Positions 4,921 to 17,820 of a stretch of DNA of 64,000 bases are shown piece by piece. The stretch comes from Spiroplasma diminutum CUAS-1 (GTDB lineage: Bacteria; Bacillota_I; Bacilli_A; Mycoplasmatales; Mycoplasmataceae): assembly GCF_000439455.1 (NCBI RefSeq), contig NC_021833.1, forward strand, positions 558,001 through 622,000, read 5' to 3'. The notes under the pieces are model-generated. The model ran no database searches. It worked only from the letters and a program-made list of their open reading frames with translations, and was not told where the DNA came from. How positions within the stretch are numbered: the first letter of the stretch is position 1; each line of letters begins with the position of its first letter. A program made the position numbers and the translations under genes.

Positions 4921-5958
4921 TTACTTTATAAAATGTTGATGTTTATATCAAGGATTATTATTTCAATGATATCTGTCATCAATTTCTTGATTTTCTAAAA
5001 GATTTGTCATAACAAAACTTGGATTTGCAATTAAACATCTTCCAACTGAAACTGCATTAATATTATTTTTTAATGCTTCTAATATATCCTCTTTTGAACC
5101 ATAATTTCCAGTAGTAATAATGTTTAAATTTGTATACTCTTTTAATTTCTTAGAATATTCAAGTCTATGTAGTTTAACATTATTTTCAACTCCAATAGTA
5201 GATTTTCTTTTTGATAAAATATCTCCTGCACTTACATGAATATATGAAATATAGGGCTCTATTAAAGGAATAATTTCTTTATAGTCTTCTACTTTAATTC
5301 CATCAGGATTTGAATCATTTACTGAAATTCTAACTCCAACTGGAATTGCAATTTTTTCTTGAATATTTTTTAGAATATAAATTATTGGTTCAATTTTTTC
5401 TTGAATATTTTCACTTATTGTTAAAGTATTTAATTCATTTATCAATAAGTTTGATAATAAAATTCCATCTCCTAAGTGTATTTCTATAAAATCAAAACCT
5501 GCTTTTTTAGCTCTTCTTGCTGAATTAACAAATTCATCACAAATCTCATAGAATTCTTTTAAATCAATTATTTTTAAATTATTTTGATCTAAGAAATCAA
5601 AGTAATGATTAATTCCCCTTTTTTGGTCAGTAATTTGTGATTTACTTCCGCCATGAAAAACTTGAATTCCAATAACACTTCCACCAGTATGAACAATATT
5701 TACAAGTCTTTGCAGTCCTTCAATATGTTCATCTTTTCAAATTCCTAAACTTTTATCAGTGTATCTACCATCAGGAGTAATTCCAGTACCTTCAACAATA
5801 ATAGTTCCTACTCCTCCATAAGCTCTTGAACCATAATGTTGAATATGAATATCATTTACAAATCCATCAACAGATGAATTAACATCCATTGGTGCTAAAA
5901 CAATTCTATTTCTTGATTCAATATTTGGGACTAAGCAAAATTTATCATTTATTTTCAT
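4921..5958 (-). CDS. Old-yellow-enzyme type NADH:flavin oxidoreductase
   Basis: A 345-residue TIM-barrel flavoprotein. The N-terminus (RNRIVLAPMDV), the strand HYGSRAYGGVGTIIVEGTGI, the IPVGVRIS strand and the C-terminal NAVSVGRCLIANP, which would hold the FMN phosphate, follow the usual order of the OYE/YqjM group. It is predicted to reduce activated alkenes or similar substrates with NAD(P)H in the cytoplasm; the substrate cannot be read. The last residues (after DRYH) are reached only with TGA as Trp. It sits 21 bases after the HAD phosphatase gene, probably in one transcript. Confidence 0.85.
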
Positions 5959-5979
5959 AATTTACACCTATATTCTGCT

Positions 5980-6843
5980 TTATTGAAATTCTTCTATAAT
6001 CTCATTTAATTTTTTACCTACTCCAGCATTTTGTACTGTTTCAATAACTTCTTTTGAAAGTTCTTTTATTCCTTCAATTGCATTTCCTACTGCATAACAA
6101 TTTGGAAAATCTCTAAACATAGGATAATCATTATGCTCATCTCCAAATACATGAATATCTTCTTTTGTTAAATTATATTTATCTAAAAGTTGATTTAATC
6201 CTCAACTTTTAGTTACACCTTTTTTAAAGATCTCTACTCTACAAGTTTTTTCTTTAGGAAATTCTAAAGCAAGTAGATCATTTTCTTCTACTAAGTTTCT
6301 TATAAATTCTAATTGTTCTTGATTTTCAGAATTTGCAACTAATACTGGAAAACTTTCATCATGATCTAATCCATTATCTATTAAGTCTTGTAAATCATCA
6401 TATTTATATAAAATTTTTCCTTTTGGAAAATGTGAGAAATCAATTTGGATTTCATTACGAACTAAAACTTCTAATCAGTCATCTTCTTTAATATAATGTG
6501 TTCTAAAATCATTTGATATACAAATGTCAATATCTGTTTCTAAAAATTTTTCTAATAGAACTTTAAACTCTTCTTTATCAAAATGATTTTTTGCAACATA
6601 TTCTCAAGTTTTTGGATTGATAACTGATGCTCCATTTGAACAAATTACTGGTAGATCAATTTGTAAATCTTTTGCTGCAAAATCAACTAAAAAATAATTT
6701 CTTCCTGTAACTATTGTTAAACTATTATTTGATTCTTCTTGAAATTTTAAAAGTTCTTTTTTATTTTCTTCACTAATATTATCTCATTCATAAAGAATAG
6801 TTCCATCCATATCAGTTGCAGCTATTTTTTTTATTTCTTTCAT
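5980..6843 (-). CDS. Cof-type HAD-IIB family phosphatase
   Basis: A 287-residue haloacid-dehalogenase-like hydrolase. Motif I is ATDMDGTIL (nucleophile Asp), motif II the Thr of LTIVTGRN, and motif IV GDEHNDYPMF; a C2-type cap lies between. Proteins of this group dephosphorylate sugar phosphates, FMN or similar small molecules; the substrate is unknown. The gene is the first of the pair with the flavoprotein and is transcribed away from the nitroreductase gene. Confidence 0.85.
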
Positions 6844-10687: not shown

Positions 10688-10713
10688 AAAAAAAGTAGGT
10701 AAACCTACTTTTT
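10688..10713. terminator. Terminator of the large surface-protein operon
   Basis: AAAAAGTAGG and CCTACTTTTT around a TAAA loop; the stop codon of the 896-residue protein (10705-10707) lies inside the stem. Usable in both directions. Confidence 0.8.
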
Positions 10714-13395
10714 AACAGTTTTTTTAACTTTTTTAAGTCTTGACTCTATTTCAGAATTAGTTTTTCTTTCCCTTTTGTCATTGTCTTGTTCTTTACTATC
10801 AGCTCAGTTATTTACAACTGGTGAAGTATCTTCTATAGTTCCATTATCAACTCAAATATATTTTTTCTCATAATCTGGATCTTCTAATTTTTCTAATCCA
10901 TATTCAAGTTCTCTTTCAAATAAACCACTTCTTACAAATCCATCGTCTTTATGTAAAGTTGCTACATCTGATTTTTTTGTTATTTTCTTAGCTTTTGTAA
11001 CTGCATTTTTATCAGCAACAATTGCTGCATATCTTGGTTGATTTCTCATGAATTTTCTTCTGAAGAATTTTTCTCAAATGAAATATGCTAATAATAACAA
11101 TAAGAATAATATTGAGAAAGCAATCAATAAGATTAATCAAAGTGGGAAATTAACTGGAACTGGAACTGGAACTAATAATTTAATTTCAATTGTTGGAATT
11201 TCAATTCCAGTTCTAATAGCAGTTGCTGTTATTTTTAAATCAACATCTTCTCCTGGTTCAATAGCAGTAATTGTTAATTTTCCATCTTTATATTCTGATT
11301 CAAATTTTGCAGGATTAGATGATTCACCAACTTCTTCAAAAGTTGAAATTGCTTCAACTTTAACATCACTGAACATGTGAGCATTTTCAATTGTGAAAGT
11401 TTTTGATTTACCTTCTTTAAGTTTAATGCTATTTCCAATTCCATTAATTGAAAGTTTTGGTTCAATTGCAGTAAATTTAATATTTGCATTTACATTATAT
11501 TGTTCAGTACTTTCAATATTAAAGTTATAGTTTTTGGCCTTTTCGACTGTAAAAGTAATAATTCTATTATCACCATCTTGTCTTTCAGAAACTATAAGAC
11601 CATCAATTTCTTTTGTGATAGCATTTGTATCACTTTTTCATCCTTCAAGTTTATATTCAAATGATTCACCAACAAATAATCCCTTTGCAAATTCTTCATC
11701 AACAAATTTACCAATAACTTTTTCAAGACCAAATTTTGTAAATTTTACAGTAATTGAACCAATTGCAGCTTTATCTTCATCAGATAATAATAAACCATCT
11801 TTTGCTTTAACTTTAAAATCTCAAGTATCACTTGTTGATAAATCGATTGAAGTAATATCATTGACAACTTCTACTTTATTTCCAAGTTGTTTATTAACAT
11901 CCTCAATGATTTCATTAATTAAGTTTTTATCTGTTATGTTTTTTCTTTGTACTTCAATCGAAGTTGAATATTTGCCTTCCCTAATAACATTATTTCAAAC
12001 GTTTCTATTATAATTTGAAATTTTGAATTTTAGAGAATTTGCAAATATAGTATTTTCAAATGATTTTGATGTTTCCTTATATCAATTATCTTTTGTTACA
12101 GTATTACTTAAACTTAAATCATTTGCAATTATTTGTGATTGTTTTTCAACACTTTCACCAATTACTTGCTCTTCTTGTTTTGTTAATTGTCCTGCAATAA
12201 TTAAACTCATAAAGTCTTTTTTAATATTGTCAGCTGATGCTTCAACATTTCCTTTATAAGCTTTATTTACTTCATAGCTTGATAAATTAATAAATTCTCT
12301 TGAATAACCTATTTTTGATCTATCATCTTTTAATCAATAAGTTCCCTTATGTCCTTGATAAGTTTTTGTAAAAGAAAAATCACCTTCTATTACAATTTCT
12401 TCTAAAGTTAAATTTTCATTTTCTGTTTCAGTTAATCCAGAATAGATATTCACTCCTTTTTCAGAAGTAATTTTTAAATTTCCATTGCTTAAAAGTTCCA
12501 TTTCTGAAATTTCATTCACATCATCAATTGTTGAATAAGGATTATTTTTATAATTATCTGCTAAATATTGATCGATTGTCGAATTATTTAATTTATATAT
12601 TTTATTTCCCTCAGCTAATAATGTATAGTTATCATTTAATCTTTCAATAGCTGAAGCATTTTCAATTGGAATATCACTTGATTTATCATCAATTAATACA
12701 ATTGTATTAATTTGTGCCTTTTTATTTAGAGCTAAAAATTGCTTGTTATTATTACCAACATTTATAATTCTCCTTTGGAATTCTTCATTATCCAAACTTG
12801 AACTTGTAATTGATGGTATTAAATTTGATGCATTACCCTGATTGTCAAAAGATATAATCGATATATTATTTTTATCAGACATAATATATAAATTACTTAT
12901 AGAATCAAAAAATGTTGATTTTACTCCCTGTGTCGAATTAAATGTTGCACCTTTTACTTCTGTTATCTTTTTATCATTAATGTCTCAAGTTTCAGTAATA
13001 TCTTCTTGATTAAGTTCAAATTTCAAGACTAATGATGATCTTGCATTAGCTTTATTTGAAAAATATAAACTATTTCCAATTATAAAAATATCTGAATATT
13101 CTAAATTATTTCCTTTAATTAATTCATGTTTTTCACCATTTGGTAAATAAATATAAATTGTAGTCCCTGTTGCAGTAATGAAATAATCATAATCATTTCC
13201 ATCTTCATCTTTCCCTCTTCAAATATTAAAACTTTCATCATTATTTATTTTAATTGATGAATAATTATTATTAGATCATTGTTGTGGTTTTAAAGAATCT
13301 ATTAGAATTTCATGATTTATGCTAAATGCAGTGATATTCGAGATAACAGGTGTACTAATACTTAATGTTGCTAAAATAGTTATTAATTTTTTCAT
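10705..13395 (-). CDS. Large secreted surface protein with C-terminal membrane anchor
   Basis: An 896-residue protein. The N-terminal signal peptide (MKKLITILATLSISTPVIS) lacks a lipobox cysteine. A long extracellular part follows, whose first 300 residues are rich in short Gly/Asn/Asp turns of beta-propeller-like character (inference). Near the end are an immunoglobulin-like stretch (AIEPGEDVDLKITATA), a VPVPVPV spacer, one membrane helix (about residues 770-795) and a basic cytoplasmic tail. Only TGA read as Trp keeps the frame open. GGGGGAAAA precedes the start, 22 bases after the 925-residue gene. It is probably an adhesin or substrate-capture protein; no named family recognised. Confidence 0.8.
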
Positions 13396-13416: not shown

Positions 13417-16194
13417 TTATTTCTTTTTTTCTTCTCTACGTTTTGCTTGTGCAATTTTTGCAGCCTCTTTACCAACTGCTGATTTATAGAATCGTTTACG
13501 AGAAATGAATCATCCTGACATAATCACAAGAATTAAAATTAACATTCCCCCAAATACTAAAATTGGTGGAACTCATCTTGGAAGTGATGAAGGAGTTTTT
13601 AAACCATAAATTGTTACATCAATAGTTGTATAATTCATCTCTCCATTAATATTTGATTGTGTTGAGTTAGTTCTATCAAAATTAAATGCTCTGTCAAAAA
13701 CTCTTACAGTAAAAGTAGAAGAATTTTCTTTAAATGAGTATTTAACTCCATCAATTAATGACAATCCAACTGCAGGGTCTAAATTTTTATGTTGATTTAA
13801 ACGATTTTGAATTTGCAATAAATTTTCTTGATCGTTATTTGTATACAATCCAATACCATTAAATTGCATTTTAGAAACATTTTGTGCAATTGAAATAATA
13901 TCAATTTTATTTACATCATCATTTACTGATTCTCAATTTTTTCCATTCGTATTCATTTTAACTTTAAGTGTTGGTAAAGTAACAAAATCATTTCCATCTT
14001 CAAGATAGAAAAAATCGTTTTCTCCATTTTTTTCATTAGGTCTAATACGTATTCCACTTAAAATAAAATTATTATCCTCATCTAATTTAGGATTCTTTTC
14101 AGCAAAACCTCAACCATTTGTTGAAAATTCATCATTTCCATTAGAAGCATATCAACTATTAATTTCTCAACGTGATTGTTCTAATTCTTTTCATAAAATT
14201 TCATTTTGAAAACCAGGGATTTTCTCTAAAGCTTCTTGAATTTGATTATAAACTCAACCTACTACACTATTAAAATCATCATATTTATCTAAAACATAAT
14301 TTTCTTCTCATGGTATTAATTCTTGTAAATTATATCTATTTGTAAAAATAGTATTTACTGTTTGAATTTTAGAATTTTTAAATCTTGATGTATTTGAAGA
14401 ATTAATGTTTTTAATTAAAATATTACCTGTTTCATTAATCTTTCCGTATATATTTTCAGGAATTAAATTATCATCAGAAATTTCAAGTTCATAATCTGTT
14501 CCTAATTTAGAACCTTCAAAAATATCTCTTACTTTTGGATCATTAATTATTGAATTAACTGTACTAGTTCCATCTGATCCACGTAGAGAATAAGATAATT
14601 TATTCTTTAAATCTTCTTCATATTCTAATTTTCCATTTAATGCAGAACCTGGATTATAAGTAAATCTATTTGTTACCAAATTATTTAAATCATATTTCTC
14701 AAAAACAAATGAATTAAATGTATTTGCATTTTCATCACTTAAAATATATTGAATTCTATTATCATAGTACATAATACTATTTTCCAATGTTGAATATCTT
14801 AACGCTCCTCCTCTTTGTGCAAATGTTGAATCCAGAAATAAAATTTTTCTAGCTATTCCATTTTGACTCATATTTTTTGGATCTTTATATGAATATTGAT
14901 AAACCGAATTTGCAGTTGTTACAACAATATTATAATTTTTATTTATATCATCATAATATGAATAAAAACCATTTATTTTATTTTCTTCAAGAATCTTTTC
15001 ATTATCATATAAAGCTGTAAAGTATTGGGGATCAAGTTCAAATAACAATACTATTTCGTTATTAGCATTACTTGAATCAATATAATAAATTCCAATTTTA
15101 TTTGAAGTAGTATCAGTCGCTGATAAAATAGTATATTGTGGGCTTGAAGACCCTGTATGATCAGTATTTGAAATAAAATTCATTCTTAGATTTTCAAAAT
15201 TTAATACTTCTTGTTTATCAATTGTATTATTTTTTGAATCAATTATATAAGAATTAAATACCTCAGGTTCTTCTGGTGTTAGATTAAAGTTAATAGCTAC
15301 TTTATTATCTGATCCCATAGTAAAAGTTGAATCGTAAATATTTTGAGTTTTGATACCTTGTATTTGAATAGTACTATACTCAACTTCTTCAGGTTTTGAA
15401 AAATCTAATTCCCCTGTATTCAAGTCCACTAACGGATTTAAATTATAAGTTGCAATATAATGTGTATCAAAATTACTATAGAATAGATAAATATGATTAT
15501 CTATATCTGGATCATTTACGCTTCTAGTTGGTACATAAACTTTATTAATTTTTGACATTGCAGGAGTTTTTAAATTAATTTTTTGTTTTTCATTATTAGG
15601 ATTAATATTAGTAATTGTAAGACCTTCTTGATTTTCATTATTATCTATTTTATCGTTTGCATATACTAAATAATTTGTTTTTGAAGTTTGAAAACCATTT
15701 TTTCCATTATAAGTTGTTGTCAATGCTGCAGTTGATCTGTTATAAGTAACTTCCTTAGAGTAAACATCGTTTTCAAAAATTTCAAATCCTTCTTTATTAT
15801 CATTTTTAAGGATATATCCTTTTCCTACACTTGAAGATAAATTATAAATTACATCATTATCCGTATTTTCTCCATCACTATATTTAAAAGAACCCTTAAT
15901 TTGATTAATTGCTTCTTTTAAATCACCACCAATATCTTCACCTTTAACTTTGGTTTCATCAGATACACCGATCCCATAATTTGTATTTCTTTGAACTTCT
16001 AAAAAATTACTATCTTCAGGTACATTTGGATCTAATTCAACTCCTGTAAAAATATCAAATTTTTCACTATTTACTTTTTCAGTTTCTGAAAAGCGAGGTG
16101 AAATATAGTTAAAAATACCAGTCATATCAGCTGTGAGAGCTACTGGTTGTGCAGAAATTGTTAATCCTCCTAATAAAGTTAATAAAGTTTTCAT
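13417..16194 (-). CDS. Large secreted surface protein with C-terminal membrane anchor (first of pair)
   Basis: A 925-residue protein with the same plan as its downstream neighbour: signal peptide (MKTLLTLLGGLTISAQPVAL, no lipobox), about 840 extracellular residues rich in Asn, Ser, Thr and Tyr with repeated strand-turn segments, a membrane helix after SSLPRWVPPILVF, and a basic tail ending REEKKK. The pattern of short strands such as IYYID, YYDNRIQYIL and IYLFYSNF suggests a beta-propeller, by inference. A good -10 box lies 160 bases upstream, so the leader is long. The two genes form one operon. Confidence 0.8.
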
Positions 16195-16360: not shown

Positions 16361-16464
16361 GTGAAGTTGAAAGTAAAATAATAGTCAAATCATAAAAAAG
16401 TTTTACTTTCATAAAATATGAGTGATAAAACTTTTATAACACTAAAAAGTTTTACACTTAAAAG

Positions 16465-16491
16465 TAAAAAAAGCCCAGACCGAAGTCTGGA
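16465..16491 (-). terminator. UUCG-capped intrinsic terminator of the noncoding RNA
   Basis: On the minus strand CCAGAC-TTCG-GTCTGG is followed by GC and seven T. It is the most GC-rich terminator in the window. It faces no protein gene, so it must end the RNA transcribed from about 17.0 kb. Confidence 0.9.
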
Positions 16492-16975
16492 CTAAAACTA
16501 TTTAAGGGTAAAATAATTTTAAATTTAACAACTTGAATTGTTCTAGGTACTTATTTGCCTTTTTCAAAGCATTTTACAAGTAGCATTAACTTGTAGTTTC
16601 CTGATCCCGCCCTTACACCCTTTTGTTTATCAAATTCATGATAAACATACAAGAAACTTGGAGATTTTTAATTAATATAATTAATAAACCAATACCTTTA
16701 TCAGAAGAATTCACTTCTAATTATTCTTTTTAACTTAAGAAATATAACCATATTTGTAAGTTCGTAAAAGATACCTTACAATAATTATTATTAATCATTT
16801 TAATAAATATTCAATGAATTCTGGTAATTCTAAAATACTTTTTAATTTGTTATATTTCTTTTATATTTCTAAACAATTGTGTTTTTAACTGTTTTTTGAT
16901 ATATTTATATTAGTTGTTAACTTTTAATCAAGTTAGCAACTACAATTATGTTGTTGTAAGCCCTCCCAAGTTTAT
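16465..16975 (-). ncRNA. Candidate large structured noncoding RNA
   Basis: About 510 bases without a usable ORF in any frame, with local GC islands unusual for this genome. Minus-strand helices: 16963-16973 pairs with 16654-16663 over 10 bp with one bulge, 300 bases apart; hairpin 16625-16646 (8 bp); hairpin 16575-16595 (7 bp); hairpin 16556-16571 with a GAAA tetraloop; 16504-16509 pairs with 16617-16622; 16955-16960 can pair with 16612-16617, which would form a pseudoknot with the first helix. It ends in a UUCG-capped terminator. It matches no RNase P, tmRNA or SRP RNA hallmark that I know. The 5' end is uncertain and may reach about 17140. Confidence 0.65.
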
Positions 16976-17373
16976 AATAACTTCAGGGATATATTACTAT
17001 TATCGATTTCAATAAGATCATTTATCTGAAAAGTATCTATACTTCAAATAACAAATGATGAAAGGATAATATTAATATTTTCCCTTTTTTTATTTTCAGT
17101 TTATCTGAAAAATTTAATGTTCTTAAAAATATATATCTAAAGATTCTAATAATATTAGGATCTTTTTTTCATTTCATATCTACTAAATTAAATTAACACT
17201 TACTTTCTTTATTTTAGTATAAGCCAAAAGATAATTTTTTTTGTTTTTTAATAAACAAATGTTCCTCTGACTGCTTTTATTTTAATATTTTAAAATAAAA
17301 AAGCAAATTAATTTTATAAAAAATAGTCAAATAACATTGATTAAACTTGGGTTTTAAACATTTAAAAATATTT
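16976..17373. other. Gene-free interval with several hairpins
   Basis: About 400 bases without a coding frame. Hairpins are visible at 17018-17057 (ATCATTT with AAATGAT around a second stem), at 17095-17113 (TTTTCAG/CTGAAAA), and at 17143-17172, where a 10-bp stem with a TTTTTTT tail on the plus strand looks like a terminator. The minus strand carries TTATACT near 17216, a possible -10 for the RNA below. Confidence 0.5.
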
Positions 17374-17820
17374 TTAAAAATTATATGGAAAATTTAATTC
17401 CAAAAACTTCTTTCATCCTGGATTTGGTGAATGATTTGGGTAAATATTTCAATATTGTTTTTGAGCATTTTGATAACTATCTGCATTAATTATTTTGTTT
17501 CTTACCAAGTACATAAAAACAATACTTGCACTTCTATTTACTCCTCAAATACAGTGAACATATATTTTTTTATCTTTTATATTATTTTCAATTTGTTGAA
17601 TTGCATCTAATATTAAGTCTTTATCCATATCTTCAATATATGGATAATCTTCAAAATTATATAAAATTCTATTATTTTTATCATCAATTAATTTCTTAGT
17701 TTCTCCTTTTGGATTTTGATCTAAGAATATCTCTTGTGCACAACTTAAAACAAGCTGAGAATCATTTGGGACACTATTCATGTCTCCTAAATATAAATTT
17801 TCTATTATTTTTTTATTCAT
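17374..17820 (-). CDS. Dual-specificity protein phosphatase
   Basis: A 148-residue cytoplasmic phosphatase of the cysteine-dependent superfamily. The active-site loop reads VHCIWGVNRSAS, matching H-C-x5-R with nucleophile Cys and phosphate-binding Arg; the Trp is encoded by TGA. The N-terminus (ENLYLGDMNSV) and the Asp-rich loop ahead of the loop match small DSP/VHR-like enzymes. GAGGTG lies 8 bases before ATG. It follows the unknown gene at 17835-18350 by 14 bases, probably in one transcript. Targets are unknown. Confidence 0.85.

Follow-up and report, generated by a model that had tools for sequence, protein, structure and literature searches.

A putative large structured RNA gene of no recognised family in the Apis clade of Spiroplasma

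What is encoded by a minus-strand stretch of the Spiroplasma diminutum CUAS-1 chromosome that spans some 800 nt? The stretch lies in the window analysed here (64,000 nt, positions 558001-622000 of contig NC_021833.1; coordinates below count from its first letter), and a first-pass annotation made from the sequence had read it as a large structured RNA of no recognised family. The locus is very probably a structured non-coding RNA gene: it has a predicted promoter and terminator of its own, no conserved ORF, and helices that covary among homologues, the features by which a stand-alone gene of this kind is recognised. With a probability of roughly 0.6, it would be a structured RNA gene of the Apis clade that stands alone and whose product acts in trans, with a pseudoknotted, partner-binding 3′ core and an accessory 5′ domain.

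The ends of the gene are set by a promoter and a terminator (Table 1). The promoter counterparts in L001-L008 read TTG(C/T)..-N16-TA(A/C)AAT, with a spacer nearly equal in several loci. A generic scan, in which promoter-like sites are no more frequent than expected, misses the one at 17306-17279, so the promoter claim rests on cross-species conservation. Given this conservation in eight species, transcription would begin at about 17271, some 100 nt beyond the upstream end of the interval first proposed (16465-17175), which is too short; the transcript should then run leftward over 806 nt to about 16466. A terminator scan returned two terminator-like sites against 0 in shuffles, one of them the UUCG-capped terminator at 16493-16466 that had been recognised from the start. 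Repeated AAGTTTTAC-type runs occupy the plus strand immediately downstream of the terminator (16395-16470). Complete-type homologues measure 752-856 nt.

Could this RNA be translated? No ORF exceeds chance length, as had been claimed for the minus strand (longest sense ORF 46 aa, shuffle mean 44), and in the conserved 3′ core the species differ by indels of 1-4 nt that disrupt the frame; a coding RNA was rejected on these grounds. The fold energy of the minus strand lies 8.1 sd below dinucleotide shuffles (z -8.1). Because the plus strand folds well too (z -7.0 against the same kind of shuffles), the direction of the transcript was taken from the promoter and terminator. The GC islands described in the first-pass annotation are a fair description of the 3′ core (33% GC) and not of the whole RNA, which at 22% compares with 24% for the window.

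Table 1. Features of the putative RNA gene, listed from 5′ to 3′ along the transcript.
Feature	Position	Strand	Observation
Promoter TTGCTT-N16-TAAAAT	17279-17306	minus	counterparts in eight loci (L001-L008), equally placed
Whole RNA gene, about 806 nt	16466-17271	minus	promoter-to-terminator span; ORFs at chance level; homologues in 10/20 genus genomes
Irregular 100-nt arm closed by GGGA/UCCC	16985-17084	minus	93% of cells paired
5′ module strand AUUAUAAACUUGGGAGGGCUUACAACAAC	16950-16978	minus	near-invariant in 10 loci; two of these genomes lack the rest
5′ module hairpin	16911-16942	minus	63/64 canonical pairs in 9 loci; stems differ; arms hand-picked
Conserved strand AUAUAAAUAUAUCAAA after the 5′ module hairpin	16895-16910	minus	alignment A4
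Middle hairpin UUGUAAG...CUUACAA	16754-16781	minus	in the RNAalifold consensus of 9 loci; 51/57 pairs
P1 5′ arm AGUUUCUUG	16650-16658	minus	pairs with 16603-16595; 98.6% paired
P2 hairpin	16624-16647	minus	53/54 canonical pairs; stem frequently replaced; arm-permutation p = 5e-5
G-rich strand AAGGGUGUAAGGGYGGGAUCA in the P1 loop	16602-16622	minus	near-invariant in alignments A1 and A3
P1 3′ arm CAGGAAACU	16595-16603	minus	partner of the P1 5′ arm
P3 hairpin ACAAGU/ACUUGU	16576-16594	minus	100% paired; nearly invariant
P4 hairpin, GAAA loop	16557-16570	minus	94% paired; GAAA loop lost in L007 and L010
P5 hairpin AACAA/UUGUU	16527-16542	minus	98% paired; nearly invariant
Proposed partner of the G-rich strand, UUUUACCCUUA (pseudoknot with P1)	16503-16513	minus	96% paired; almost invariant
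Intrinsic terminator, UUCG loop	16466-16493	minus	stem 100% paired; 2 pairs changed on both sides

Homologues were sought by DNA search and with a covariance model of the 3′ core (R1) in 60 relatives, 20 of them in the genus. The RNA gene was found, as a single copy in each carrier, in 10 of the 20 Spiroplasma genomes, including Spiroplasma taiwanense CT-1, and by the same searches in 0 of the 40 other relatives. An exact core pattern gave one match among genome contigs, in Peptoniphilus, which is sub-threshold with R1 and was taken as chance. In an RNase P RNA tree built from those genomes for which the RNase P locus was retrieved, seven carriers cluster, and S. taiwanense lies nearby, beside two non-carriers. 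The RNA gene belongs to the Spiroplasma Apis clade; the carriers are insect-associated Spiroplasma.

The locus is stable: on the upstream side nearly all carriers share a conserved 171-aa gene that matches no Pfam family, in most cases with a dual-specificity phosphatase gene after it. The latter lies near the RNA in 10/10 carriers and is absent at the same locus of two non-carrier genomes, G002 and G015; in S. diminutum it occupies 17374-17820 of the minus strand, a short way upstream of the promoter of the RNA (DSPc, E 3e-9). The downstream genes vary among carriers and encode lipoprotein-like, small membrane and other proteins. In the window, two adjoining minus-strand genes (10705-13395 and 13417-16194) encode proteins of about 900 aa without Pfam match, both with a signal-like segment at the N-terminus and, at the C-terminus, a membrane segment that has a basic tail. 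Several carriers have homologues of them downstream of the RNA, in some split into shorter ATG-started ORFs.

Parts of the RNA have been lost separately. The syntenic locus of G002 and G015 retains the 5′ module only, as AUNAUAAACUUGGGAGGGYUUAYAAYAAC followed by the hairpin and AAUAUAAAUAUAUCAAA, with no 3′ core. In an unfiltered covariance search for the 3′ core in these two genomes and at the same locus of five further non-carriers, matches were weak (best E 0.13). The solo modules (L034 1455-1538, minus, and L035 1484-1563, plus, in G002 and G015, respectively) conserve the GGGAGGG strand, and may be small RNAs in their own right or remnants. Conversely, G013 and G019 have an intact 3′ core but lack the 5′ module, their 5′ half being missing or degenerate; around 5700-6150 of the G013 locus (L066), the RNA's promoter and 5′ half appear degenerate, with a fold z of about -1, beside an unimpaired 3′ core. 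The S. taiwanense RNA is a shortened form. The architecture of about 800 nt is thus not universal among carriers.

Is the fold under selection? Across the seven loci of complete type, the consensus fold has a z of -13.0 against column-shuffled alignments and a structure conservation index of 0.57; by segment, z is -13.5 for the arm, -9.9 for the middle and -4.5 for the 3′ part. When partners are slid by 1-3 columns, pairing in the arm and 3′ domain falls from about 94% to 34-57%. Double-change cells, whose counts are inflated by the relatedness of the sequences and refer to helices partly derived from those same sequences, number 19 in the arm against 7.4 in shuffles (0/500), with 10 pairs changed on both sides, and 15 in the 3′ domain against 5.9 (0/500), the latter mainly in P2 and the terminator plus one P1 pair; arm and 3′ domain are independent segments. 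This P1 pair changes from U-A to C-G on both sides in the loci of two species (L003 and L004). In the 5′ module hairpin the sequence is replaced freely, with the pairing always kept. The linker between the 5′ module and the 3′ core is the least conserved part. In L005-L008, a GGGAAU-type motif (UUCGGGAAUAAA, AAAGGGA, ACAGGGAAUAAAAA) recurs up to three times per RNA, at the 5′ leader, the arm start and the middle.

For sequence constraint on the 3′ core of about 130 nt, RNase P RNA provides a yardstick. Within the main clade, core identity is 92-100% against 91-99% for RNase P RNA in the same pairs of genomes, and the core is about 82% identical to that of S. taiwanense, as is RNase P RNA. Judged by these identities, the 3′ core is under purifying selection comparable to that on RNase P RNA. 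The G-rich strand (16622-16602), which P1 encloses together with P2, could re-pair with UUUUACCCUUA (16513-16503) near the 3′ end, a nearly invariant pairing that would fold the core into a compact pseudoknotted body.

This arrangement differs from the one first suggested, which included a 10-bp long-range helix and a different possible pseudoknot. The helix, AAACTTGGGAG (16973-16963) with CTCCAAGTTT (16663-16654) and one bulged G, does exist, with 49/56 canonical pairs, as does the pseudoknot between CTTACA (16960-16955) and TGTAAG (16617-16612), with 45/48. Both weaken in S. taiwanense. The helix never covaries and the pseudoknot has zero compensatory changes, and the two were rejected as structural backbone; the compensatory changes expected among relatives occur in the arm, P2, the terminator and one P1 pair instead. 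The 3′ arm of the long-range helix overlaps the covarying P1 (AGUUUCC/GGAAACU) and is retained in G013 and G019, where the 5′ arm is missing. P1 therefore explains the conservation of AAGUUUC better, because P1 covaries and these two genomes keep the 3′ arm without its partner. The GAAA-capped hairpin (P4) of the first-pass annotation is present; its loop is not invariant.

Does the RNA belong to a known family? With Rfam 15 at the gathering score, the whole 64,000-nt window gives zero family matches. At the locus, matches up to E 10 are scattered, sub-threshold and at chance level, and none recurs in eight homologous loci searched at E<=5; ROOL, GOLLD and OLE are absent from both sets. The first-pass reading that no recognised family applies is supported. 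RNase P RNA and tmRNA had been discounted from their motifs, and both are indeed encoded elsewhere: the sole RNase P RNA match of the genome (RF00011) is at 283734-284084 of the contig, outside the window, and tmRNA (RF00023/ARAGORN) is at 84483-84895. Neither tmRNA nor tRNA was found within the window. A search of open-licence papers found none on a structured RNA family in Spiroplasma. The kind, a large ornate non-coding RNA, is already known; the family itself appears new by every search run.

Comparison with other large RNAs offers functional analogies only. Like ROOL, known from Rfam and as a long non-coding RNA of Ligilactobacillus salivarius (PMC5643018; PMC12286853), the Spiroplasma RNA would be an independent transcription unit of more than 500-700 nt with many hairpins and pseudoknots. 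However, ROOL is phage- or plasmid-borne near tRNAs and exceeds the level of 16S rRNA in L. salivarius (PMC5643018), whereas the Spiroplasma RNA is chromosomal, vertically inherited, without covariance match and not reported as highly abundant in RNA-seq. GOLLD, often over 800 nt, likewise combines conserved and variable domains, but the Spiroplasma RNA has neither a covariance match to it nor a phage or tRNA context. OLE is also a large chromosomal structured RNA and acts with protein partners; here too a covariance match is lacking. ROOL, GOLLD and OLE form homo-oligomeric RNA assemblies by cryo-EM (PMC12286853). Class B RNase P RNA resembles the 3′ core in its measured rate of sequence conservation, but it and tmRNA have genes of their own in this genome.

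How abundant is the transcript? In RNA-seq of cultured S. diminutum and S. taiwanense, tmRNA and rnpB are the only non-coding RNAs named as highly expressed, and the remaining intergenic signal is called low (PMC5726471). As only these two were named, the RNA of about 806 nt is probably not hugely abundant.

How might the RNA work? It would be transcribed from its own promoter, ended by its own terminator and act in trans, a reading drawn from its independent transcription, the changing downstream genes and the lack of an ORF. The 3′ core is taken as the working body because it is the part retained in all carriers; it might bind a conserved partner, for which a protein is the likeliest candidate, in the manner of scaffold and RNP RNAs, a mode of action that is proposed tentatively. 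The 5′ arm and GGGAGGG module would form an accessory domain. A bolder version, that this is a new large bacterial RNA class which arose within one genome-reduced Spiroplasma clade, is constrained as RNase P RNA is, and has a pseudoknotted 3′ core that is catalytic, assembles from RNA only or forms an essential RNP, is rather doubtful.

Alternatively, the locus may encode two functional RNAs, one consisting of the 5′ module with arm, GGGAGGG strand and hairpin, the other of the 3′ core, cut from one precursor in most species or kept singly in others. The poorly conserved linker fits such a division, as do the 5′ module alone in G002 and G015 and the core without it in G013 and G019. Yet no conserved internal promoter or terminator was found between the parts, and 8/10 carriers have both in fixed order; two RNAs are unlikely. 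It is very unlikely that the RNA is a cis-regulatory leader, that is, a riboswitch or attenuator of the downstream gene. It does end in an intrinsic terminator, and a gene on the same strand follows downstream, but 270 nt separate the two in the window, an alternative antiterminator was not seen, and the downstream genes vary between carriers with no fixed association with a gene class.

Two further explanations are highly improbable. Size, ornate fold and enigmatic function (PMC12286853) would suit a member of ROOL, GOLLD or OLE diverged past the Rfam models, a link already raised in the first-pass annotation; the covariance searches at either threshold lend it no support, the window has no tRNA island, the RNA locus has no phage, plasmid or viral-contig match, and it is syntenic and vertically inherited on the chromosome. 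A DNA element, or the relic of a mobile element in decay, with repeats that just happen to fold well, would explain the folding of the plus strand and the loss of parts in some species. It is at odds with the directional promoter and terminator, the compensatory base changes, and RNase-P-like conservation of a single copy at a fixed locus.

What would a stand-alone RNA gene mean for these bacteria? Apart from the universal non-coding RNAs, Mollicutes with reduced genomes retain few others, so an RNA gene of about 0.8 kb with RNase-P-level constraint in a genome of about 0.95 Mb must pay for itself. Its restriction to one clade makes its origin datable on the species tree, and the modular losses, leaving the 5′ module alone or the 3′ core alone, hint at which part does the work. 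The transcript is directly testable in public strand-specific RNA-seq reads from two carrier species (SRR3466528-SRR3466531; PMC5726471). With it, the small set of large ornate bacterial RNA families that have no assigned function would grow by one.
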